Shown here: piece after piece, positions 10,104 through 64,000 of the stretch
Layout: every line of letters begins with the position of its first letter
How positions within the stretch are numbered: position 1 is the first letter of the stretch
NCBI GenBank assembly: GCA_029582155.1
Contig: CM055901.1
Location: 45,537,580 to 45,601,579, forward strand
Direction of reading: 5' to 3'
Length of the DNA: 64,000 nucleotides
Source: Panopea generosa
Lineage: Eukaryota > Mollusca > Bivalvia > Adapedonta > Hiatellidae
The notes under the pieces: model-generated
What the model was told of the DNA's origin: nothing
Database searches by the model: none
What the model saw: the letters and a program-made list of their open reading frames with translations, nothing else
Position numbers and translations under genes: made by a program

Positions 10104-10655
10104 TTAGAGAGAGTATGGTAAAACAATGCAGCAAAATGGAATTCTGTTGTAACTGATACATAGATTTTGATCCTCGGGTCAGTATCACACAGGCATTATC
10201 CCATTTTATCATAAGGGACTGCAGGTTTATTCATTTATTTTAATCTGGAAATAACTCCAGATTTATCAGCATTTGTACTTGTTTCTATATCATTAATTAT
10301 GTTGATATTAACAAAAACATATAAATAACATGTTTATTTCATTTTATAAATAATTCAAGTATTTTAATTATTTTTTAAAAAAGGAACCAAAGGTATACTA
10401 CCCCTTCTAAAAGCAAGTGTTTTTAATAATTTTATTTGACCCATACGAGTCATTTTCCATATTCTGGAGAGAAATACTTATCACAACAAAATCATTAACA
10501 AAAATGAGTGAACAGAAAATTATTTTGTCACTTTTAGTAACAGAAGATCAAAAACTAGCAACTGAAGCATTTTTAATCATTCAAACTGGGACTTTATAGA
10601 AGTAAAATCAAATGAAAATCAACATTTTGATGAGCAGAATGTTAGAAATGATGAT

Positions 10656-11078
10656 ATGATGGCGGATAAACAACAGGAATTTAATGATACTGATATATCT
10701 AATGGTCAGTTGGATGGACATGTTATAAATGAGGAAGATGTTGAAACTGATGATGAATCAGACTGTGAAGGTGATAGGTGTAACGAATGCTTTTGTTCAC
10801 CTTGTGTGACAACAAATGAACAATCGTGGTTGGGACCAATGTCAAGGCCACACTTGAAAAACAGAAATTGCAGGAGAATAAGATACAAAAAATGTTGGGC
10901 TATGTTAGAATGGCAAAATGCATGGAGGGAGAACAAATATTTAGCTAAGAAAGCTAGCATGATGAAGAGATCAGGTGTACATGAACATATTGTGAGAATT
11001 CAAAGAGAGATAATGCCAAAATGTGTAATCGATTTAGTGAGGGGACGCTATCCAAATCCTCCAGGGGTACCATACTAG
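10656..11078 (+). CDS. Acidic, cysteine-containing ORF, probably transposon-derived
   Basis: This is an open frame of 140 residues. The N-terminal half is acidic (EEDVETDDESDCEGD). A cysteine cluster follows (CNECFCSPC, with a further Cys four residues before it). The C-terminal half is basic and aromatic and ends REIMPKCVIDLVRGRYPNPP then GVPY. From memory, ORFs with a CFCSPC cluster and a C-terminal REIMP-CV-VR-YPNP-GVPYMGH block recur in cnidarian, fish and mollusc genomes as multicopy, transposon-linked genes. I could not search for this, and I do not assign a family. The codons after the stop (TAG) read GHCW, so the stop may be a point mutation of an ATG that cut four residues from the end. 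A lysine-rich minus-strand frame lies head to head at 9822-10103. Confidence 0.5.
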   Translation: MMADKQQEFNDTDISNGQLDGHVINEEDVETDDESDCEGDRCNECFCSPCVTTNEQSWLGPMSRPHLKNRNCRRIRYKKCWAMLEWQNAWRENKYLAKKASMMKRSGVHEHIVRIQREIMPKCVIDLVRGRYPNPPGVPY

Positions 11079-19132: not shown

Positions 19133-19560
19133 CTACTTTGATGAAGTTGAATAAATTGTGCGGATGTTAGCTCCTAATTTATTTTGTTCTTCCATTCTCA
19201 CATCTCTAAAGCCATTTTTGTTCAGGGCTTCCATGTAGAGTGCAGGATCAAACATGGACTTTTGAAGCAAGCCTTTCTTGGCTAGTTTGTTCAAATTATC
19301 TAAATGCTGAGCTGCTATCATGGGAGAATTTGGTTTTATCACTCTTTGTAATTCCCTCACGGCTGCATTCATGTCTGGCCAAAAATAGAAGCAATTTGTG
19401 TGGAAAATTACATCAAAAGTGTTGTCCTTATATGGCATTTCTGTCACTGTTCCTGGTATAAGTTTCATTTTACCGCTGGATATTTCATCTTTCAGACTGG
19501 CTGTGGCTACTTGACACATTTTCTCAGATAGCTCTACACCGTGTAATACTCCATTCCCAT
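19133..19560 (-). CDS. Methyltransferase copy 2, exon 3 (terminal)
   Basis: This 428-nt terminal exon follows an acceptor ending CACCTTTCAG. It encodes residues 68-209 and ends with the same C-terminus as copy 1 (TIYSTSSK). It is one codon shorter than in copy 1, in the loop after NKNGFRDV. Confidence 0.85.
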
Positions 19561-22500
19561 CTGAAAGGTGAATGAGAGATTATACCATTTTTGTTTAACA
19601 AAATGTGTCCATGGATGTTTAATGTATAGTTCTACTCAAAACCATGCAGTATTTTTATCCCCCCCCCTCCCCCACCCCCTACCTTCCTTCCAAATTTATT
19701 TTGGTGGCATATAGTAATCGGAGCGTCTGTCCATCCGGGCACACAAATGGGTAGTTAAGTGTCTGGGGTTTAGGGTTAGTAATTTTTATCGACAGTTGAA
19801 AAGCAGTTGAAAAATAATTACGTGGCTGTTTCAAGACACTTGAAAACAGCTTTTATGTGGCTTTTTTTTCTCTTATGTGGCTAAACTTTAGCCAATTTTA
19901 GCCACACAACTAATAAGCTTGACGCAAAGAAGCCACTTAAATACCCATTCGTAAGAACGTCCGTACATCCTTCCGTCTGCTATTTGTGTCCAGTCTGTAA
20001 CTTTGTCATGCAAAGATGGATTTTGTTGATACTTGCTACAAATGATCAACATAACATGAAGAAGTGTCGCAAGTAAGACCCACAGCCATACCTCAAAGGT
20101 CAAGGTCACAAATTGAGTTTGTTTGACAACACTTTGAGTCTTTGTGAGATTTCTTGTCTGGCCAGTGTAACTTTGTCATGCATGAATGGATTTTAATGAT
20201 ACTTGCTACAAATGATCAACATAACATGATGATGTGTTGTAAGTAAGACCTATACCTGTACCTCAAAGATCAAGGTCATACTTTGAGTTTGTTTGACAAC
20301 ACTTTCAGTTTGTTTGAGATTTTGTTTCTGGCCTGTAACTTTGTCACGCATAGATATATTTTGTTAATAATATCTACAAATGATCAACATAACATGAAGA
20401 TGTGTCGCGCATTACACCCAGAATCCCACTTGAAAGGTCAAGGTCACAATTTAACTTTGTTTGATGAAACTTTCAGCCTGATTGAGATTTGATGTCCAGT
20501 CTGTAACTTTGTCACTTATGAATAAATTTCAAAAACACTTAGCTCAATTAATCAGCATGACATTACAAAGTGTTACGTGTAAGACCCACATGCGTACCTC
20601 AAAGGTCAAGGTCACACTTTGAGTTTGTTTGACAACACTTTCAGTCCATGTGAGATTTCGTGTCTGGCCTATAACTTTGTCATGCATAGATAGCTTTTGC
20701 TAATACTAGCTACAAATGAGCAACATAACATGAGGATTTGTTGCCCATAACACCCAGATTCCCAATTCAAAGGTCATGGTCACAATTTAACTTTGTTTGA
20801 CAACACTTTCAGTCTGATTGAGATTTGGTGTCCAGTCTGTAACTTTGTCACCTATGGATAAATTTCAAAAACATTTGGCTCAATTCATCAGCATGACATG
20901 ACAACATGTCACGTGTAAGACCCACATGCATACCTAAAAGGCCAAGGTCACACTTCAAGTTTGTTTGACAACACTTTCAGTTTGTGTGAGATTTCATATC
21001 CGGCCAGTAATTTTGTCATGCATAAATGGATTTATAAATACTTGCTGCAATTGATCAACATAACATGACGACATGTTGCATTTATTACCCAGACTCCCAC
21101 TTCAAAGGTCAAGGTCACAATTTAACTTTGTTGGATGACACTTTCAGTCTGATTGAGATTTCGTGTCAGATCTGTAACTTTGTCACTTATGGATAAATTT
21201 TAAAAATACTGTGCTCAATTCATCAGCATGACATGACATGTCATGCATAAGACCTACATGTGTACCTCAAAGGTCAATGTTACACTGAGATTGTTTGACA
21301 ACACTTTTAGTCTGTGAGATTTCATGTCTGGCCAGTAACTTTGTCATGCAAAGATGGATTTTATAAATACTTGCTACAAATGATAACATGACAATGTGTT
21401 GCACTTATTACCCAGACTCCCACTTCAAAGATCAAGGTCACAATTGAACTTTGTTTGACAACACTTTCAGTCATTTTGAGATTTCTTGTTCTGTCTGTAA
21501 CTTTGTCATCTATGGATAAATTTTAAAAACATTTGACCCAGTTGATCAGCATGACATAATTAAGTGTCACATGTAAGACCCAGAACCTTTCCTCAAAGGT
21601 CAAGGTCACACTTTCAATTTGTTTGATATTGCGTGTCTGGTCTGTGACTTTGTCTTTAACATGGCTCAGTTTATCAACATGACTTGACGATGTGACGAAG
21701 TAAGACCAAGACTTGTACCTCAAAGGTCAAGGTCACACTTTTAGTATGTATGACAACACTTTGAATCAGATGAGATTTCAAGTCTGTCCTTTAACTTTAT
21801 CATACATGGAAGGATTTCAAAAACACTTGGCTCAATTTATCAATTGACCAACAATTGAACTGTAACTTTGTCTTACATTTAGAGATTTAAAAAGAGCTTG
21901 ACAAAAGTGATCAGCATGTCATGATGATGTTTCACCTGCATTTAACTGTTGAAATACCCAGACCATTACATCAGATGTCAAGGTCAAGGTAACACAAAGG
22001 TCAAGGTCATGCATTAATGTAAAAAAAAAAAACCCACATGAAATTGCATGTATAGTCTGAAACATCAGTCTATTTCTCTTGTTTCAGGTGACCTTGACTT
22101 CTACGGATGTGCATGCCTTAATAATGTTTAGTTTTTGCATTTAGCTCAGTTTTTTTAAAAAAAACTGTTTGGCCGAGTGTTACTAAATTTGGGTCATTGT
22201 TTTGTTATGGGCAGTACTACTCAAAACCATGCAACAATTTACTGTGTGGCCTTGATCTTGACCTCTAGACTTAAATTTATGCAGAGTTACTGCACTTGTT
22301 ACCTTATTGCAGTTCTTGTGGAGCAAACTTCTTCAGCAGTTTTCAATCAATTGATTTGAACCAACATCAGGTGTAGAAATGCCTAAAATAAATTTTGTTG
22401 TGACCTAATTTAATGTTTTGTAGAGTTATTGCCATTGCAAATTACTGTATTACAAACTATTCCTCAGTTTTCAAGGGATTGGTGTGAGACTTTGAATACA

Positions 22501-31239: not shown

Positions 31240-34200
31240 AGGTTTTATCCTGACTGTCCATCCATACATATGGTTATTCCAAGTAGAGAATTGTCAGAGA
31301 CCTATATGTTTTATCCTGACTGTCCATCCATACATATGATTATACTAATTAGAGAATAGGCAGAGACATAAGTGTTATATCCTGACTGTCCATCCATACA
31401 TATGGTTATACTTAGTAGATAATTGACAGAGACCTATATCTTTTATCTTGACTCTCCACCCATACATGTGGTTATACTAATTAGGAAATTGACAAAGACC
31501 TATATGTTTTATCCTGACTGTCCACCCATACATATGAATATACTAATTAGGGAATTGATAGAGACCTAAATGTTTTATCCTGACTGCCCACCCTTACTTA
31601 TGGTTATATTAAGTAAGGAATTGGCAGAGACCTATGTTTTATCCTGACTGTCAACCCATACATATGGTTATACTAAGTAGAGAATTGGCAGAAACCTATA
31701 TGTTTTGTCCTGACTATCCACCCATTTACATGGTTATACTAATTAGGGAATTGACAGATACCTATATATTTATCCTGACTGTCCACCCATAAATATGGTT
31801 ATACTAATTAGATAATTGGTAGAGACCTAAATGTTTATCCTGACTGTCCACCCATACATATGATTATACTAATTATAGAATTGGCAGAAGCCTATTTGTT
31901 TTATCCAGACTGTCTGCCCATACATATGGTTATACTTATTAGAGAATTGACAAATACCTATATGTTTTTTCCTGATTGTCCACCCATACATATGGTTATA
32001 CTTATAAGAGAATTGACAGAGACCTATGTTTTTTATTCTGACTGTCCACCAATACATATGGTTATACTAAGTAGAGAATTGACAGAGACTTATATGTTTT
32101 ATTCTGACTGTCCACCAATACATATGGTTTTACTAAGTAGAGAATTGGCAGACACTTTAATGTTTTATTCGGCTGTCCACCCATTCATATGATTATACTA
32201 ATTAGAGAACTGATAAAGACTTTTATGTTTTATCCTGACTCTCCAGTCATACATATGGTTATACCAATTAGGGAATTGGCAGAGACCTATATGTTTTATC
32301 CTGACTGTCCACCCATACATATGGCTATACTTATTATAGAATTGACGTAGACCTATATGTTTTATTCTGACTGTGTACCAATACATATGGTTATACTAAA
32401 TAGAGAATTGACGTAGACCTATATGTTTTATTCTGACTGTCCACCCACACATATGGTTATACTAAGTAGAGAATTGACAGAGACCTATATGTTTTATTCT
32501 GACTGTCCTACAATACATATAGTTATACTCAGAAGAGAATTGGCAGAGACTTTAATGTTTTATTCGACTATCCACCCATACATATGATTATACTAATTAG
32601 AGAACTGATAAAGACTTTTATGTTTTATCCTGACTCTCCAGTCATACATATGGTTATACCAATTAGGGAATTGGCAGAGACCTATATGTTTTATCCTGAC
32701 TGTCCACCCATATATATGGTTATACTTATTAGAGAATTGGTAGAGACCTTAATGTTCTATCATGATTGTCCACCCGCACATATGGTTATACTAACTGGAG
32801 AATTTGCAGAGACCTAAATGTTTTATCCTGACTGTCCACCCATACATATGGTTATACTTATCAGAGAATTTGCAGAGACATATAAGTTTTATCCTGACTG
32901 TCCACCCATACATATGATTATACTAAGAAAAGAATTGGCAGATACCTAAATGTTCAAATGTTTTATCCTGACTGTCCACCCATACATATGGTTATACTAA
33001 GTAGAGAATTGGCAGAGACCTATAAGTTTTATCCTGACTGTCCACCCATACATATGATTATACTAAGAAGAGAATTGGCAGATACCTAAATGTTCAAATG
33101 TTTTATCCTGACTGTCCATTCATACATATGGTTATACTTAGTAGAGAATTGGCACAGACATAAATGTTTTATCCTGACTGTCCACCCATACATATGGTTA
33201 TACTAAGTATAGAATTGACAGAGACCTATATGTTTTATCTTGACTGTCCATCCAGACATATGGTTATACTCATAAGGGAATTGACAAAGACCTTAATGTT
33301 TTATCCTGACTGTCCACCGATACATATGGTTATACTTATCAGAGAATTTGCAGAGATCTATAAGTTTTATCCTGACTGTCCACCCATACATATGATTATA
33401 TTAAGAAGAGAATTGGCAGATACCTAAATGTTCAAATGTTTTATCCTGACTGTCCATTCATACATATGGTTATACTTAGTAGAGAATTGGCACAGACATA
33501 AATGTTTTATCCTGACTGTCCACCCATACATATGGTTATACTAAGTATAGAATTGACAGAGACCTATATGTTTTATCTTGACTGTCCATCCATACATATG
33601 GTTATACTCATAAGGGAATTGACAAAGACCTATATGTTTTATCCTGACTGTCCACCCATACATATTGTTATACTTATCAGAGAATTTGCAGAGACCTATA
33701 TGTTTTATCTTGACTGTCCATCCATACATATGGTAATACTCATAAGGGAATTGACAAAGACCTATATGTTTTATCCTGACTGTCCACCCATACATATGGT
33801 TATACTAAGTAGAGAATTGGCAGAGACCTGTAAGTTTTATCCTGACTGTCCACCCATACATATGATTATACTAAGAAGAGAATTGGCAGATACCTAAATG
33901 TTCAAATGTTTTATCCTGACTGTCCATCCATACATATGATTATACTAAGTAGAGAATTGACAGAGACCTTAATGTTTTATCCTGACTGTCCACCCATACA
34001 TATGATTATTCTAAGAAGAGAATCGGCAGATACCTAAATGTTCAAATGTTTTATCCTGACTGTCCATCCATACATATGGTTATACTAAGTAGAGAATTGA
34101 CAGTGACCTATATGTTTTATCCTGACTCAACCCATTCATATGATTATACTAATTAGAGAATAGGCAGAGACATTAGTGTTATATCCTGACTGTCCATCCA

Positions 34201-37200
34201 TACATATGGTTATACTTAATAGATAATTGAAAGAGACCTATATGTTTTATCTTCACTCTCCACCCATACATATGGTAATACTAATTAGGAAATTGACAAG
34301 ACCTATATGTTTTATCCTGACTGTCCACCCATACATATGGTTATACTAATTAAGGAATTCACAGAGACCTGACTACCAACCCATACTTATGATTATATTA
34401 AGTAGGGAATTGGCAATACATATACATATGGATATACTAAGTAGGGAATTGACGTAGACCTATATGTTTTATTCTGACTGTCCACCAATACATATGGTTA
34501 AACTAAGTAGAGAATTGACGTAGACCTATATGTTTTATTCTGATTGTCCACCCATACATATGGCTATACTAAGTAGAGAATTGACAGAGACCTATATGTT
34601 TTATTCTGACTGTCCACCAATACATATGGCTATACTAAGTAGAGAATTGACTTAGACCTATATGTTTTATTCTGACTGTCTACCAATACATATGGATATA
34701 CTAAGTAGAGAATTGACAGAGACCTATATGTTTTATTCTGATTGTCCACCCATACATATGGCTATACTAAGTAGAGAATTGACTTAGACCTATATGTTTT
34801 ATTCTGACTGTCTACCAATACATATGGTTATACTAAGTAGAGAATTGACAGAGACCTATATGTTTTATTCTGACTGTCCACCAATACATATGGCTATACT
34901 AAGTAGAGAATTGACTTAGACCTATATGTTTTATTCTGACTGTCTACCAATACATATGGCTATACTAAGTAGAGAATTGACAGAGACCTATATGTTTTAT
35001 TCTGACTGTCCACCAATACATATGGCTATACTAAGTAGAGAATTGACTTAGACCTATATGTTTTATTCTGACTGTCTACCAATACATATGGTTATACTAA
35101 GTAGAGAATTGACTTAGACCTATATGTTTTATTCTGATTGTCCACCCATACATATGGCTATACTAAGTAGAGAATTGACAGAGACCTATATGTTTTATTC
35201 TGACTGTCCACCAATACATATGGCTATACTAAGTAGAGAATTGACTTAGACCTATATGTTTTATTCTGACTGTATACCAATACATATGGTTATACTAAGT
35301 AGAGAATTGACAGAGACCTATATGTTTTATTCTGACTGTCCATCCATACATATGGCTATACTAAGTAGAGAATTGACTTAGACCTTTATGTTTTATTCTG
35401 ACTGTCTACCAATACATATGGTTATACTAAGTAGAGAATTAACGTAGACCTATATGTTTTATTCTGACTGTCCACCAATACATATGGTTATACTAATTAG
35501 AGAAATGGCAGAGACCTAAATGTTTTTTCCTGACTGTCCACCTATACATATGGTTATACTAATTAGAAAATTGACAGAGACCTAAATGTTTTATCCTGAC
35601 TGTCCACCCATACATATGGTTATACTAAGAAGAGAATTGGCAGATACCTATATCTTATATCCTGACTGTCCACCCATACATATGGTTATACTAAGTAGAA
35701 ATTGGCAGGTGCCTCAATGTTATATCCTGACTGTCCACCCATACATATGGTTATACTAAGTAGAGAATTGGCAGAGGCCTAAATGTTTTATCCTGATTGT
35801 CCACCCATACATATGGTTATACTAAGTAGAGAATTGGCAATGGCCTAAATGTTATATCCTGACTGTTCACCCATACATATTGTTATACTAAATAGAGAAT
35901 TGAAAGAGACCTAAATGTTATATCCTGACTGTCCACCCTTACATATGGTCATACTAAGTAGAGAATTGGCAGAGTCCAAAATGTTATATCCTGACTGTCC
36001 ACCTATACATATGGTTATACTAAGTAGAGAATTGGCAGAGACCTAAATGTTATATCCTGACTGTCCACCCATACATATGGTTATACTAAATAGAGAATTA
36101 AAAGAGACCTAAATGTTATATCCTGCCTGTCCACCCATACATATGGTTATACTAAGTAGAGAATTGGCAGAGTCCTAAATGTTATATCCTGACTGTCCAC
36201 CTATACATATGGTCATACTAAGTAGAGAATTGGCAGAGTCCTAAATGTTATATCCTGACTGTCCACCTATACATATGGTTATACTAAGTAGAGAATTGGC
36301 AGAGTCCTAAATGTTATATCCTGACTGTCCACCTATACATATGGTTATACTAAGTAGAGAATTGGCAGAGGCCTAAATGTTTAATCCTGACTGTCCACCC
36401 ATACATATGGTTATACTAAACAGAGAATTGGCAGAGACCTAAATGTTTTATCCTGACTGTCCACACATTCATACGGTTATACTAAGTAGACAATTGGCAG
36501 AGGCCTAAATGTTATATCCTGACTGTCCACCAAGACATATGGTTATACTAAGTAGAGAATTGGCAAATACCTAAATGTTTTATCCTGACTGTCCACCCAT
36601 ACATATGGTAATACTAGGTAGATAATTGGCAGAGGCCTAAATGTTATATCCTGACTGTCCACCAAGACATATGGTTATACTAAGTAGAGAATTGGCAAAT
36701 ACCTAAATGTTTTATCCTGACTGTCCACCCATACATATGGTTATACTAAGTAGAGAATTGGCAGAGACCTAAATGTTTAATCCTGACTGTCCACACATTC
36801 ATACGGTTATACTAAGTAAAGAATTGGCAAATACCTAAATGTTTTATCCTGACTGTCCACCCATACAAATGGTTATACTAAGTAAAGAATTGGCAGAAAC
36901 CTAAATGTTATATCCTGACTGTCCACCCATACATATGGTTATATTTAGTAGAGAATTGGCAACAGCCTAAATGTTAGTTCCTGACTGTCCTTCCAAACAT
37001 ATGGTTTTACTAAGTAGAGAAATGGCAGAGGCCTAAATGTTTAATCCTGACTGTCCACCCATACATATGGTTATACTAAATAGAGAATTGAAAGAGACCT
37101 AAATGTTTTATCCTGACTGTCCACCCATACATATGGTTATACTAATTAGAGAATTGACAGATACCTACATTATTTATCCTGACTGTCCATTTGTACATAT

Positions 37201-38140
37201 GGTTATACTTATTAGAGAATTGGCAGAGACCTATATGTTTTATCCTGACTGTCCACCCATAGATATGATTATACTAAGTAGCGAATTGACAGAGACTTAT
37301 ATGTTTCATCCTGACTGTCCACACATACATTTGATTATAATAAGTATAGAATTGACAGATACCTAAATGTTTTATCCTGACTGTCCACCCATACATATGA
37401 TTATACTTATTATAGAATTGACAGATACCTAAATGTTTTATCCTGACTGTCCACACATACATATGGTTATACTAAGTAGAGAATTGGCAGATACCTAAAT
37501 GTTTTATCCTGACTGTCCATCCATACATATGGTTATACTAAGTAGAGAATTGGCAGATACCTAAATGTTTTATCCTGACTGTCCATCCATACATATGGTT
37601 ATACTAAGTAGAGAATTGACAGAGACCTAAATGTTTTGTCCTGACTGCCCAACCATACATATGTTTATACTTATCACAGAATTGGCAGAGACCTATATGT
37701 TTTATCCTGACTTTTCACCCATACATGTGAATATACTTAGTAGAGAATTGACAGAGACTTATATGTTTCATCCTGACTGTCCACACATACATAATTTTTA
37801 TGGTTATACTTATTATAGAATTGGCAGATACCTAAATGTTTTTTCCTGACTGTTCACCCATACATATGATTATACTTAGTAGAGAATTGACAAAGACTTA
37901 TATGTTTCATCCTGACTGTCCATCCATACATTTGATTATAATAAGTAGAGAATTGACAGAGACCTATATGTTTTATTCTGACTGACCATCCATACATATG
38001 ATTATACTAAGTAGAGAATAGGCAGAGACCTAAATGTTTTATCCTGACTGTCCACCCATACATATGGTTATACTTATTTTTGAATTGGCAGAGACCAAAA
38101 TGTTTTATCCTGACTGTCCATCCACCCTTACATATTCATC
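31240..38140. repeat. 6.9-kb array of a 66-bp minisatellite (about 100 copies)
   Basis: The unit reads TTTTATCCTGACTGTCCACC, CATACATATGGTTATACTAA, GTAGAGAATTGGCAGAGACC, TATATG. Because 66 is divisible by three, frames of up to 131 codons run through parts of it, but most units contain an in-frame stop (ACCTAAATG). Subregions have distinct variants: an alternating 132-bp dimer (GACAGAGACC against GACTTAGACC) from about 34430 to 35450, and units with a 10-bp ATGTTCAAAT insert at about 32947, 33086, 33425, 33897 and 34036. Confidence 0.95.
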
Positions 38141-39488: not shown

Positions 39489-40670
39489 CAACTGTCATCC
39501 ACAATGCTTAGCTCAATTTAGCTATTCTTAATAGTCTTAGTCATCTATTGTCAACTGTCATCCACAATGCTCAGCTCATCTGAGCTATTCTATATAGTCT
39601 TAGTCATCTATTGTCAACTGTCATCCACAATGCTCAGCTCATCTGATCTATTCTGTATAGTCTTAGTCATCTATTGTCATCTGTCATCCATAATGCTCAG
39701 CTCATCTGATCTATTCTGTATAGTCTTAGTCATCTATTGTCAACTGTCATCCACAATGCTCAGCTCATCTGAGCTATTCTATATAGTCTTAGTCATCTAT
39801 TGTCAACTGTCATCAACAATGCTCAGCTCATCTGAGCTATTCTTAACAGTCTTAGTCATCTATTGTCAACTGTCATCCACAATGCTCAGCTCATCTGAGC
39901 TATTCTATATAGTCTTAGTCATCTATTGTCAACTGTCATCCACAATGCTCAGCTCATCTGATCTATTCTGTATAGTCTTAGTCATCTATTGTCATCTGTC
40001 ATCCATAATGCTCAGCTCATCTGATCTATTCTGTATAGTCTTAGTCATCTATTGTCAACTGTCATCCACAATGCGCAGCTCATCTGAGCTATTCTATATA
40101 GTCTTAGTCATCTATTGTCAACTGTCATCAACAATGCTCAGCTCATCTGAGCTATTCTTAACAGTCTTAGTCATCTATTGTCAACTGTCATCCACAATGC
40201 TCAGCTCATCTGATCTATTCTGTATAGTCTTAGTCATCTATTGTCATCTGTCATCCATAATGCTCAGCTCATCTGATCTATTCTGTATAGTCTTAGTCAT
40301 CTATTGTCAACTGTCATCCACAATGCTCAGCTCATCTGAGCTATTCTATATAGTCTTAGTCATCTATTGTCAACTGTCATCAACAATGCTCAGCTCATCT
40401 GAGCTATTCTATATAGTCTTAGTCATCTATTGTCAACTGTCATCCACAATGCTCAGCTCATCTGAGCTATTCTATATAGTCTTAGTCATCTATTGTCAAC
40501 TGTCATCAACAATGCTCAGCTCATCTGAGCTATTCTTAACAGTCTTAGTCATCTATTGTCAACTGTCATCCACAATGCTCAGCTCATCTGAGCTATTCTT
40601 AACAGTCTTAGTCATCTATTGTCATCTGTCATTCACCATTCTAAAACTTGTATGAACTTATCCATATAGC
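39489..40670. repeat. 63-bp minisatellite with a five-unit higher-order repeat
   Basis: The unit reads CAACTGTCATCCACAATGCT, CAGCTCATCTGAGCTATTCT, ATATAGTCTTAGTCATCTAT, TGT. Variants (GAGCTATTCTATATAG, GATCTATTCTGTATAG, GAGCTATTCTTAACAG) occur in the same order in units 1-5 and 6-10, giving a 315-bp higher-order repeat. About 18 units are clear; decayed copies continue to about 40900. Most units contain the short inverted pair AGCTCA, TC, TGAGCT. Confidence 0.95.
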
Positions 40671-45885: not shown

Positions 45886-46479
45886 ATTCAAATTCTATTT
45901 GTTAATGAAATTTTAGAAAAGAGGAATGGAAGAATTTGCAATAGAAATTAGACAAGTTAAGAACTAGTATATTAAATTGCTTGCAAGATGTTGTCATATT
46001 TAGTACTACCCATAATGCTCTACTTTTATACTCACTAACTATGTTTCAACTTGATACTTTTCATTAGATTGAGTATCTGCAGATATGTAATTATGACAGG
46101 TCATGTTCAAATTGTGAATACGTTTATCAGGAAGACAAGAGATGGTTGATATCTCGTTTAAGCAAGACATTTTAGATATGCAATATTTGTTTAACAAAAT
46201 TTCATATCTCGGCTTTGTCCTCCTTTAGATTACCATATAATAGTATATACATTGTAGAAATGTGTGGTTTGTCTACGTAATCAGTCAATTAAAATGAATG
46301 CTGATGAGTTTCAGCTTAATTAAGAGTGCATTGAACTATGGCCTAGTCTGACCGTTTACACCAGTTAATTAAGATGAATAATAAACGTTATATAGTTTAA
46401 TAGACAGCCTGTATACAGAACGTGTGGTAATAAAAGTAATATAAAAACCTGTTTATAAACAGGTATTATAGTAAACAAT

Positions 46480-48835
46480 CTATAGTATAATAAATAATCT
46501 ATACATTAAATGTCAAGCTATAGTATAATAGACAATTTATAGTTTAAAATATAATTTATAGTATAATAAACTATTTATAGTATAATAAAATGTAAAGTTT
46601 AATAAACAATTTATAGTATAACACTACAATCTATAGTATATAATTGTGCAGTCTGTTGTATAATAATAATAATACAGTTTATACTATAATATACAATATG
46701 TAGTATAATATATAATTTTAGTATAACATACACTCTTTAGTATATATACAGTCTATAGTATAACATACAGTCTATAGTAAAACATACACTCTGTAGTATA
46801 TATACAGTCTATAGTATAACATACAATCTATAGTCAAACATACAATCTATAGTATATATACAGTCTAAAGTATAACATACAGTCTATAGTATAACATATA
46901 ATCTATAGTATATATACAGTCTATAGTATAACAAACAATCTATAGTATAACATACAATCTATAGTATAACATAAATCTAGTATATATACAGTCTATAGTA
47001 TAACATACAATCTATAGTATATATACAGTCTATAGTATATATACAGTCTATAGTATAACATACAATCTATAGTTTATGTACAATCTATAGTATAACATAC
47101 AATCAATAGTAAAATATACAATCTATAGTATATATTCAGTCTATAGTATAACATACCATCTATAGTATATATACAGTCTATAGTATATATACAGTCTATA
47201 GTATAACATACAGTCTATAGTATATGTACAATATATAGTATAACATACAATCTATAGTAAAACATACAATCTATAGCATATATACAGTCTATAGTATGTA
47301 TACAGTATATAGTATAACATACAATCTATAGTATATATACAATCTATGGTATATAAACAGCTATACTATATGAAGTATAATATACAATATGTAGTATAAT
47401 ATACAATATTAAGTATAATATACATTGTGTAGTATAATATACAATATGAAGTATAATATACAATATGTAGTATAATTTACAATTTAAAGTATAATAAACA
47501 ATATGTAGTATAATATACAATATAAGTATAATATACAATATGTAGTACAATATTCAATCTACAGTATAATACCTAATATGTAGTATAAAATACAATATGT
47601 AGTTTATTATATAATATACAGTATAATATACAATTTAAAGTATAATAAACAATATGTAGTATAATATACAATATGAAGTATAATATACAATATGTAGTAT
47701 AATATACAATATGAAGTATAATATACAATATGTAGTATAATATACAATATGAAGTATAATATACAATATGTAGTATAATATTCAATCTACAGTATAATAT
47801 CTAATATGTAGTGTAAAATACAAAATGTAGTTAATTATATAATCTACAGTATAATATACAATTTAAAGTATAATAAACAATATGTAGTATAATATACAAT
47901 ATGAAGTATAATATACAATATGTAGTACAATATTCAATCTACAGTATAATATACAATATGTAGTATAAAATACAATATGTAGTTTATTATATAATCTACA
48001 GTATAATATACAATTTAAAGTATAATAAACAATATGTAGTGTAATATACAATATATAGTATAATATACAATATGAAGTATAATATACAATATGTAGTACA
48101 ATATATAATATATAGTATAATATACAATATGTAGTACAATATATAATCTATAGTATAATATACAATATATAGTAGAATATACAATATGTAGTAAAATATA
48201 CAGTCTATAGTATAATATACAATATGTAGTATCATATACAATTTATAGTATAATATACAATATGTAGTACAGCAATCTATAGTATAATATACAATATGTA
48301 GTACAGCAATATATAGTATAATATACAATATGTAGTATAATATACAATCTACAGTATAATATACAATATGTAGTACAGCAATATATAGTATAATATACAA
48401 TATGTAGTATAACATACAATTTATAGTATAATATACAATATGTAGTATCAAATACAATCTCTAGTATAATAGACAATATTAAGTATAATATACAATCTAT
48501 AGTATAAAATATAATATGTAGTATCATATACAATCTATAGTATAATATACAATATGTGGTTTAACATACAATCTATAGCATAATATACAATATGTAGTAT
48601 CATATACAATCTTTAGTATAATTTACAATATGTAGTATAATATACAATCTATAGTATAAAATACAATATGTAGTATAATATACAATGTGTAGTATAATAT
48701 TACAATCTACAGTATAATATACAATATGTAGTATAATATACAATATGTAGTACAATATATTATCTATAGTATAATATATAGTAGAATAAACAATATAGTA
48801 GAATAAACAATATATAATAAAATAAACTATATATG
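46480..48835. repeat. AT-rich array of about 19-bp units
   Basis: The unit is AGTATAATATACAATATGT or AGTATAACATACAATCTAT with many variants. The left part (46480-47340) is rich in CTATAGTATA and the right part in ATGTAGTATAATA. It ends directly at the mosaic SINE at 48837. Frames rich in Tyr, Ile and Leu on the minus strand are by-products. Confidence 0.92.
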
Positions 48836-59309: not shown

Positions 59310-59713
59310 ATAGGACAGTAGTTGTAACACATGTAGGACCATAGTTGTAACACATGTAGGACCCTAGTTGTAACACATGTAGGACCTTAGTTGTAACACA
59401 TATAGGATCTCTAGTTGTAACACATGTAGGACACTAGTTGTAACACATGTAGGACCCTAGTTGTAACACATGTACGACCCTAGTTGTAACACATGTAGGA
59501 CTGTAGTTGTAACACTTGTAGGACCCTAGTTGTAACGCATTTAGGACCTTAGTTGTAACACATGTAGGAATGTAGTTGTAACACATGTAGGACCCTAGTT
59601 GAAACACATGTAGGACCCTAGTTGTAACACATGTAGGACCCTAGTTGTAACACATATAGGACACTTGTTGTAACACATGTAGGACTGTAGTTGTAACACA
59701 TGTAGGACTCTAG
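59310..59713. repeat. 23-bp minisatellite, left part
   Basis: The unit is TAGGACCCTAGTTGTAACAC, ATG, about 17 copies. It is interrupted by the hAT element at 59714-62003 and resumes afterwards. Confidence 0.95.
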
Positions 59714-62003
59714 CAGGCCTTCTAAAATTGCCGGTTTTTGGACCAATTTCTGAAATTCAAAACCGGTTTTTGGGGGCGGTGCTTTAGCAGCCGCTCTCAG
59801 AGCTAACATGATTTTATTTTCAATACCGCAAATCTACAACCGTGTTTCGTGTTAATGCAAACCTAACAACCACTTATCAAATAGTTCCACCTGATAAGCG
59901 CTCAAACTCACTATAAACAGTAGATTCGCCTATTTCAACGAAAATATTAATATTATAACATACAGTGACGATTTATACCTATAAACAATTACGTATCGTA
60001 TAAATTCCAAGTTTATATTCTGTAGCATTAATCAGTACAAAGGAATTAAAGCGCATGAATACAGACGCGCTGAACCAAAAGATTACGCCATCTTGTAAAT
60101 CGAACTATATCGCCAACATGCACATTGAAAGAGTCGTATATTTCGGCAAGGACTTCAGATAATAAGTACTTGATTGGGGAGTTTGATTTCGCTTTTTTCC
60201 AACCTTTTTAAAAATGTGTACGGTAAAGAAACTTTTCTAGATCTGTCCCTTATGCCCAGGAACTATACTCCTTGCTTATGTCAATAAACAATCAATACTC
60301 GTTCTAAAAATAGAGATATGCTAATGTCGATCATGTGACTTGTGGTTTCTCCCAAATGTTTTAAAATAGACTTGTATTCCTAAAAAGAATTCGAGATTGA
60401 TTGAGGGTGCACCCTGAATAATGTCAGTGCTGTTTTTTTATTATTTAGTAAATATTTCAAATATTTCCAATAATTGGAACGGTAGATAATTTCTACTTAA
60501 ACATATAAGAGTTAAAGCATTTGAGTTTCCGTAGCGAAAATGCGCAAACATCCAGATGTGTCTAAAAATCGGCGCCATAACATTTTGGTTAGTGCGGTTC
60601 CGTTTAAGGGGTGATATAGGGCCCTAGAAAATATAAATGTAAGAATCAATTATTAATGTCGACATACACATTTCTACTTTTCATCTTTTAAATGAATTGT
60701 TTCACTGTTGCACTAGAGAAATCAATAAAGAAAATAGTAAATGAATATACTCAAAGTGGAATTCATCGTGCTAGATTCAGAGTACTTTGATATTTTATAT
60801 ATACTGTTTATGATAGAAAGCTTGGCATCTCTGAAAATATCACGAGTTGAATTGAAGATACAAATTCGTATCATTGAGTTGAACTAATATCTTGAAGTTG
60901 GACATTTGCCAAATTTAAGAGTTAATATTCTTACTATAGCAGAAATACACTTTTCAAAGGCAAACAATTCAGTAACGTTTCTGTCATATTCGAGAAAAGA
61001 GTCAACGTTAAGCATAGAACATGTAGATTCTGTACCATGTATAAGAATCAAAGGTAATTGGGATTATTCTACTTCAAAGTATGCAAACTGACCTGTTTGT
61101 CTAAAACAATAGCGACATTTTACATCTTATATGCTCCGCCCCCATCAGCACTACAGTGCTTTGATTGTTTCAAAGTTTAATAAAAAATTGGTCCAGATAT
61201 TTTCAAAGTTCAATAAAAAATCGGTCCAGATATTTTCTATCAGTCGTATAAAATCTCATAAATTGCTCCTACCATGCCATACTAATCCATGCCATACTAA
61301 TACGCCTTGCGGCAATATCATTTGACCGAATAATCCGTTTGTTTTGTCACCTGCTGTGCGAAATGATGTCAATTTCGACTAAACCATTGACGTTATTAGG
61401 GGAGTTTATCGGAAGAGTCTATCGCTATGTAGCATGCCTTTGATGTGTGATCAGCAACCCATAGCGTTCTGTCGGTTCATCAAAAGACTGTGTTTGCTAG
61501 CCAAAGCTGGGACGGTCGGACCTAATATTATTTGCGTCATTAAAATATTTGATCAAACGTACAGTGTGAAAGTGATAAAACCCGGAACGATTTTGTTTTA
61601 ATGCGGGACAGGTTCTGAATGATTTATTTTGGTGGTAGAACCGTTACATTGGTTTCCACGGTGATTATTTCACGCAGCTTCCGGAACTTGCAACACTTCC
61701 AGTTTGATCGAACATTTTTAATATAATGAAAATTATTCAGTAAAGCGGAAACATAATGTCAATCATTAAAATGTACACATTGTGATAAAGTATGTTATAA
61801 ACAATACAAAAATAAACTTGAAATCGCTCCCTATTAATAAATAAATGGAGAAAATACATGATGCAGCTGACATGGTGGGTGGGGTATGCATAGATGTAGA
61901 GGCATAATGTAAGGCAATTTTAGTGATTTTTTTAAAATAAGTGCGATTCTTACGGTAGTAAAAAACCTGAACTGATTTGCATTTTGGAATTTTAGAAGGC
62001 CTG
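59714..62003. mobile_element. Non-autonomous hAT element inside a minisatellite
   Basis: This 2290-bp element has perfect 16-bp terminal inverted repeats (CAGGCCTTCTAAAATT). It is flanked by GACTCTAG and GACCCTAG, an 8-bp target duplication with one mismatch. The 23-bp minisatellite continues on both sides. No transposase frame is visible, so it would move only with help from another element. Confidence 0.85.
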
Positions 62004-62250
62004 GACCCTAGTTGTAACACATGTAGGACCCTAGTTGTGACACATGTAGGACTTTAGTTGTAACACATGTAGGACACTAGTTGTGACACACATAGGACCC
62101 TAGTTGTAACACACATAGGACCCTAGTTGTAACAATGTAGGACCCTAGTTGTAACACATGTAGGACCCTAGTTGTAACACATGTAGGACCCTAGTTTTAA
62201 CACATATAGGACCCTAGTTGTAACACATGTAGGACCCTAGTTGTGACATG
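62004..62250. repeat. 23-bp minisatellite, right part
   Basis: About ten further copies of the same 23-bp unit follow the hAT element. Some have the variants GTGACACACATAGGACC and TTTTAACACATATAGG. Confidence 0.95.
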
Positions 62251-63584
62251 TGTACTATGACACTCAGTCAGGTATATCTTATTTACAACTGTTCAAAACA
62301 AGTTGGCTTCTATAGAATTAATTCAAAGGAAAGGTCAGCCAGATAGCTTAATAATGTTTGATGGTTGTAAAATAGCGGAAGAGTGGTATGTCTGCCAGTT
62401 GGCCGTCTGGTTGGTAAAAATCAAATTTGGGGTCAGGTAAAACTTGGTCACATGTTCAGATAAACAAACTCGACTAAATTAAAGATTTTTTTTCTCAACT
62501 TATAATTTGATGTAAATGCAACTCATTACACAAACACAATGTTAACCCATTTACATAAACATATATGCCAAGAATTATTACAAAAGTTAATAAACTAGCT
62601 GCTGTGCAGGCTAGTTAGTCTAGTCGCAGCATAGTTTGATTTTTAATTTTTTCTAAGCATTAGCTGTAGCGTGATCTTCATTGTGTTTCTGTTAATAAAT
62701 ACAACCTGAAGGTATGATCACAAATGGAATGCACCCTAAATGCCCTTGTAGCCTAGTTGGTCACTTCAGAGAGATCCTCCCAATGATAAAGGAATGAGAA
62801 GGTCCAAAAACAAGGGCAGAAAAAAATTCTGACATTTTTTTTTTTTAGATGTCCAGAATGCCTTGTCACATTTTCCCGATAATGAACAACTTACATTTTA
62901 TTGTTTTGATACTACACTAGTTTATGCATGAGTAATTCTCAATAGGCAGTGTGACCAGTACGTTTGTACCCTCGTTGGAAGGCCTGTTTCTGACATCATT
63001 ACTATAATCTATTGTGGGTTGTCCTTGGTCAAGTCTCAATATCACTTGTTTCACACTGTTGAGATTGTGGGTGTCTGGCCCGGCCAAGAAAGATTGTCAT
63101 CTACTTTCAGATATACTTAGGTTCACGTTCAATATATTTGGTTTATTTGTCACCCAACAACTTGGATATGTATAAAACTTATAATATGTTGAATGGCTGT
63201 TCAAACCATTAATAATTCATTTAGAGAAACATATTGATATTTTGTAAAATTCTGTAATAATATCACCCACGCTCTCATTAACACCTCTTATCTGCTTTGA
63301 AGGTGGTATCCTTGTTACATAATATATCATTTTCTAGTTTTAACACTACAAATCAAGTAAACTGTTATCTCATGGGTTCATGCATGGAAGTTTTATAACT
63401 GACTTGAAGTTCAATGTTTCAATGCATGTTACATGTTCTTTTGTAGATACATTGTATCTATTTCACTGTTGATGTATATTATTTGTTGATTGTTTATTAT
63501 AAACTCTAGACAAATGCAAATTGACATTTATCTAAGACAAAATATCATCTGTTTTATGAATGATGTATCTGCTTATGTTTTCAG
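62251..63584. other. Probable intron or intergenic sequence before the 63585 exon
   Basis: AT-rich, with a degenerate tRNA-SINE-like scrap at about 63015-63110. No exon is seen. Confidence 0.4.
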
Positions 63585-63697
63585 TTATTCCCAGTGGATT
63601 TGGCATGTATATCGACCCTTATAACGTTTGAACATTTGATGTACCTCTGCCAGAACAGTGTGATACCTGCTGATCTGGCTGGTATAGTCAATACAGA
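63585..63697 (+). CDS. Candidate internal exon of an unidentified plus-strand gene
   Basis: This 113-nt segment follows a pyrimidine-rich acceptor (TTATGTTTTCAG) and ends at a consensus donor (ACAGA then GTAAGT). Only frame 1 is open; the other two frames hit stops within the exon. It encodes 37 codons including CISTLITFEHLMYLCQNSV and PADLAGIVNT, helical and mildly hydrophobic. I do not recognise the family. The 3' end of this exon together with its donor is duplicated in tandem downstream. If a downstream donor were used, the in-frame codons GAG TAA would terminate translation, so only the first donor keeps the frame. Confidence 0.45.
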
Positions 63698-64000
63698 GTA
63701 AGTACTGTAACAAAGTTTGATACCTTAGTAACCAACCTGTCTGGTATAGTCAATACAGAGTAAGTACTGTAACGAAGTGTGAAACCTACCAACCTGTCTG
63801 GTATAGTCAATACAGAGTAAGTACTGTAACAAAGTGTGACACCTACCAACCTGTCTGGTAAAGTCAATACAGAGTAAGTACTTTAACAAAGTGTGACACC
63901 TATCTACCTGTTGAATATAATCAATGTAGAGTAAGTACTGTAACAAAGTGTGATGCTTACCAACCTGTCTGATATAATCAATGTAGAGTAAGTACTGTAA
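63650..64000 (+). repeat. 57-bp tandem repeat containing exon end plus splice donor
   Basis: The unit includes ATAGTCAATACAGA and GTAAGTACTGTAA. GTAAGT donors occur at 63698, 63760, 63817, 63874, 63931 and 63988, spaced 62 bp and then four times 57 bp. The array runs off the window end. The last two copies have diverged to CAATGTAGAGTAAGT but keep the donor. Confidence 0.9.

Follow-up and report, generated by a model that had tools for sequence, protein, structure and literature searches.

The right-hand end of the window (the whole 64,000-nucleotide stretch of Panopea generosa DNA analysed here) probably carries a mirage-type minisatellite, in which an exon's 3′ end is repeated in tandem together with the adjoining 5′ splice site, the exon being most likely one of SZT2. 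The first repeat unit runs from the exon interior through a candidate donor at 63698, such that the repeats lie across an exon–intron boundary, provided that the exon is real and the donor at 63698 is used as predicted; the splice signal GTAAGT is itself carried by 6/6 units. The features are laid out as follows.

63567..63584, plus strand: candidate 3′ splice site upstream of the exon, a pyrimidine-leaning stretch ending in TTTTCAG (sequence reading, acceptor score 3.9)
63585..63697, plus strand: candidate SZT2 exon of 113 bp, coding for LFPVDLACISTLITFEHLMYLCQNSVIPADLAGIVNT plus GA and ending in codon phase 2 (open frame, PDB phmmer, tblastn)
63585..63656, plus strand: stretch of the exon that matches human SZT2, ending one base before the array (tblastn alignment)
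63657..64000, plus strand: 57-bp tandem array of six copies, ended by the window edge (TRF, repeat search, unit alignment)
63657..63713, plus strand: unit 1, with 41 exonic bp and the first donor at 63698 (donor positions, unit alignment)
63714..63775, plus strand: unit 2, with a 5-bp insertion and the donor at 63760 (unit alignment)
63776..63832, plus strand: unit 3, donor at 63817 (unit alignment)
63833..63889, plus strand: unit 4, donor at 63874 (unit alignment)
63890..63946, plus strand: unit 5, donor at 63931 (unit alignment)
63947..64000, plus strand: unit 6, incomplete, donor at 63988 (unit alignment)
63699..63701, plus strand: in-frame TAA, reached when the first donor is skipped (frame reading)

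TRF reports the array at 63657–64000 with a period of 57 bp, 5.9 copies, 86% matches and a score of 459, and its right end coincides with the window edge, off which the array continues; the six copies inside the window comprise one exonic copy and five downstream copies, the last of them incomplete (54 bp). GTAAGT donors are found at 63698, 63760, 63817, 63874, 63931 and 63988, spaced by 62, 57, 57, 57 and 57 bp, the first interval being longer because of the 5-bp insertion in unit 2. A sequence-only reading of this DNA had described an exon end and its GTAAGT donor as repeated six times at these positions, which TRF and the donor positions confirm. The tandem repetition every 57–62 bp up to the window edge also held, but the array proper starts inside the exon at 63657, 63585 being the first base of the exon. 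The donors, which had been called near-identical, in fact share one and the same 9-mer, AGA/GTAAGT, in all six aligned units, with A as the last exon base (read directly from the sequence) where G is usual. On the plus strand of the window GTAAGT occurs 18 times, six of them inside this array, and among the ten window arrays checked on both strands it is the only one in which a donor-like motif is repeated (six copies); two of the other nine hold one such motif each and seven hold none.

The copies have diverged around this constant core: units 2–6 are identical to the exonic 41 bp of unit 1 at 35, 35, 34, 27 and 30 positions, respectively, and 20 of the 57 unit columns vary while the donor 9-mer is invariant (P 0.014 if variable columns are placed randomly; P 0.055 for the invariant run of 12 columns), both being values from tests in which the copies are non-independent and which were picked after the data had been seen. 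The invariant 9-mer hints, marginally, at selection or recent homogenisation. Folding of the array RNA gave no structure beyond that of shuffled sequences (z +0.81; 81 of 100 shuffles fold at least as well), and searches of Rfam at gathering thresholds and for tRNAs returned no matches. On the minus strand the array is open for 91 codons (63725–64000), off the window edge, which the unit length probably accounts for.

The exon whose end is copied was among the results of a splice-site scan that yielded 35 open candidates, 18 of them on the plus strand; further filters on position (>38000), scores and G+C left four rows, namely the exon at 63585–63697, the same exon with an alternative acceptor, and two others. 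The first array copy spans its final 41 bp. Its acceptor score of 3.9 derives from a generic weight table, and together the acceptor, the open frame and a match to SZT2 make this a credible exon. The match covers its first 24 codons, of which 12 are identical to human SZT2 (tblastn, 32.0 bits), and it begins with the codon that directly follows the acceptor. The query comprised human SZT2 residues 1–1018, of which 154 were checked, and the exon was its one match in the window at E <5. Across a null set of 40 windows (one reversed and 39 Markov-resampled) the maximum score was 26.9 bits with the full query and 25.4 bits with 45-residue segments. When the exon peptide was searched against the PDB by phmmer (E up to 10), 3/3 matches were SZT2 at E 0.073 to 0.24, values that are weak alone and come from sequences of one protein, effectively one match. 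The exon probably belongs to SZT2, a nutrient-sensing gene that encodes a subunit of KICSTOR, and the claim made here is of a likely SZT2 exon, not of an intact SZT2 gene.

A sceptic could hold that both the similarity to SZT2 and the splice signals arose by chance beside an ordinary intergenic minisatellite, given the weak PDB-wide E of 0.073, the lack of any Pfam match and the failure of a long-frame PDB search to report the exon at E 0.01. This is very improbable in light of 32.0 bits against a null maximum of 26.9, of a match whose start falls exactly where the acceptor would place it, and of PDB matches that all, if effectively as one, name SZT2. The long-frame PDB searches, run with plus-strand frames from about 49–64 kb, gave no match at E 0.01 and no SZT2, their single match being at chance level (E 0.47), and a Pfam search with two of the three long frames gave one match below the cut-off (E 0.43). 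Queries of this length thus miss short exons easily, since the frame that bears the exon gave no SZT2 at E 0.01. Elsewhere in the window, which has a G+C content of 33%, two similar methyltransferase-like open stretches, which may be duplicated genes, lie on the minus strand at 2449–2910 and 19133–19579 (Pfam Methyltransf_11, E 9.3e-14 and 7e-15), and a 170-codon open frame on the plus strand at 10566–11078, with no Pfam match at E 0.1, is one that we take to resemble the zinc-binding tail of P2X7-like proteins.

Similarity to SZT2 ends at 63656, and the array takes over at the very next base. The human residues beyond the match are unlike the exon tail, SVIPADLAGIVNTE, when compared by eye, and this tail may either go back to an old variable linker, since duplicated, or itself derive from the array. 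No further SZT2 exon was detected with human residues 1–1018 as the only query in the upstream 63.6 kb; the next best segment match outside the exon reached 21.9 bits, below the 25.4-bit maximum of the null in segment mode. This search covered the upstream side of the exon, and the power of a human query to detect neighbours there is inferred. The absence of neighbours reflects either a very long upstream intron, an imperfect assembly or an orphan copy of the exon. It is this absence, with no other piece of human residues 1–1018 above the null in the window, that speaks for a fragment or duplicate of SZT2 which is no longer a working gene and happens to bear a minisatellite. Such a fragment is nevertheless unlikely: the sequence has an open frame with both an acceptor and a donor, and a very long upstream intron would give the same picture.

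What the ribosome would meet if a later donor were used can be read from the frame. As had been noted earlier from the sequence, GAG TAA follows in frame past the first donor, and splicing from each of the five later donors (5/5) would make exon codon 39 the first stop. A transcript with this premature TAA is expected to trigger nonsense-mediated decay. One can therefore imagine copy-number-tuned unproductive splicing, in which the donors compete, donors 2–6 include the TAA at 63699, the products are lost to nonsense-mediated decay, and array length sets SZT2 dose. The identity of all six donor 9-mers and the premature stop that would follow from every later donor fit this scheme, and there are human parallels in repeat units described as alternative donors in IFI6 (PMC4526556) and in an intronic 38-bp repeat of TERT described as affecting splicing by copy number (PMC3948165). 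We nonetheless consider it very improbable. Nothing specific to this array counts against it; the array RNA has no excess structure, the conservation of the donors is marginal, and the arrays of amphioxus are described as not interfering with splicing. Even further from likely is the extension by which a donor array of variable copy number would set the share of SZT2 transcripts that are unproductive, and thereby tune KICSTOR and mTORC1 amino-acid sensing between individuals. Of the earlier proposal of a decoy or copy-number switch, the truncation by later donors stands while the switch itself gains no specific support; its other suggestion, a neutral expansion that began at an exon boundary, explains the array best and is preceded in the literature by the amphioxus “mirages”.

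Under the mirage reading, splicing would most likely continue from the first donor, 63698, leaving the exon boundary in place and the remaining copies in the intron, spliced out and free to drift. The array would be tolerated since no codon changes when a copy is gained downstream of the donor in use. We infer transcription of the exon, splicing from donor 1 and neutrality of the additional copies. Donor strength cannot decide the choice among the six, since their 9-mers are identical, and position and wider context would presumably do so. Nor does an array at a splice site need a special cause, because the window is crowded with minisatellites: 17 intervals hand-picked from the TRF list, the 57-bp array included, make up about 24% of it. 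Other repeats in the window include some 6.9 kb of a 66-bp minisatellite in two blocks (31242–38124; 46.9 and 56.0 copies by TRF), an AT-rich array at 46467–48833 with mainly a 19-bp unit, about 122 copies and 18% G+C, and a single 23-bp unit that recurs in different rotation in two arrays 2.3 kb apart (59311–59713 and 62003–62248). A 63-bp array on the plus strand at 39522–40655 forms an open frame of 377 codons, which may be trivial for a unit whose length is divisible by three. Against the mirage reading stand the invariant donor 9-mer and, given that the 63.6 kb upstream yielded no further SZT2 exon, the prospect of an orphan or fragmentary exon.

Repeats at splice sites have been described in several settings. 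A literature search pairing SZT2 with mollusc gave no match, and one combining tandem repeat, splice donor and bivalve gave nothing related, judged from the listing. The minisatellite of human IFI6 (6-16, G1P3; Turri et al. 1995) likewise supplies several splice donors; there, however, two of the downstream units act as donors and three mRNA species result (PMC4526556), whereas the later donors of the Panopea array would lead to a stop. In human duplicated genes, internal tandem repeats occur at exon–intron boundaries, with 27 intron modifications there and altered splicing (PMC2812944); their placement is that of the Panopea array, but the human study compared recent paralogs in which novel introns had formed. 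Intron gain by tandem duplication of AGGT-containing segments also duplicates splice-signal sequence in tandem (PMC3443670), while the Panopea array copies an apparently existing donor and no new intron is claimed. The repeat in TERT intron 6 is an intronic array with a copy-number-dependent effect on splicing, but it lies >1 kb from exon junctions and RNA pairing has been proposed for it (PMC3948165), unlike the Panopea array with its lack of excess folding.

The closest likeness is to amphioxus, where tandem repeats spanning exon–intron boundaries in Adh3 and globin genes were named “mirages” (PMC3087553) and to which troponin C was later added (PMC3902484). Their units measure 10–72 bp in Adh3 and about 150–160 bp in globins (PMC3087553; PMC3902484), copy number differs between haplotypes (six and three units in BflGb6; PMC3087553), and somatic instability is cited for Adh3 (PMC3087553). 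In lancelet PGBD5, repeats of 60 bp and 108 bp lie at splice sites with normal splicing inferred, and the 60-bp repeat, whose first copy abuts the 5′ splice site, has two copies in one sequence version and seven in another (PMC3902484). Mirages reportedly seem not to disturb regular splicing, though the copies could be cryptic sites, and such arrays are a proposed source of new introns (PMC3087553). They also offer a natural experiment on how one of several identical donors comes to be selected by the spliceosome. The literature found under the name concerns amphioxus, while exon-boundary repeats have also been described in human genes, and an array that comes from another lineage would extend the mirage kind to that lineage. 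The Panopea array differs from the amphioxus cases in its host gene, which is probably SZT2, and in its genomic setting, where interspersed repeats look bivalve-like and the 33% G+C is lower than in amphioxus. Like those of Adh3, BflGb6, BflGb9, troponin C and PGBD5, it spans a boundary and copies a splice site; its 57 bp fall within the 10–72 bp range of Adh3, and as in BflGb9 it is the 3′ exon boundary that is duplicated, so the array is likely a further case of a known kind, at a likely SZT2 exon.
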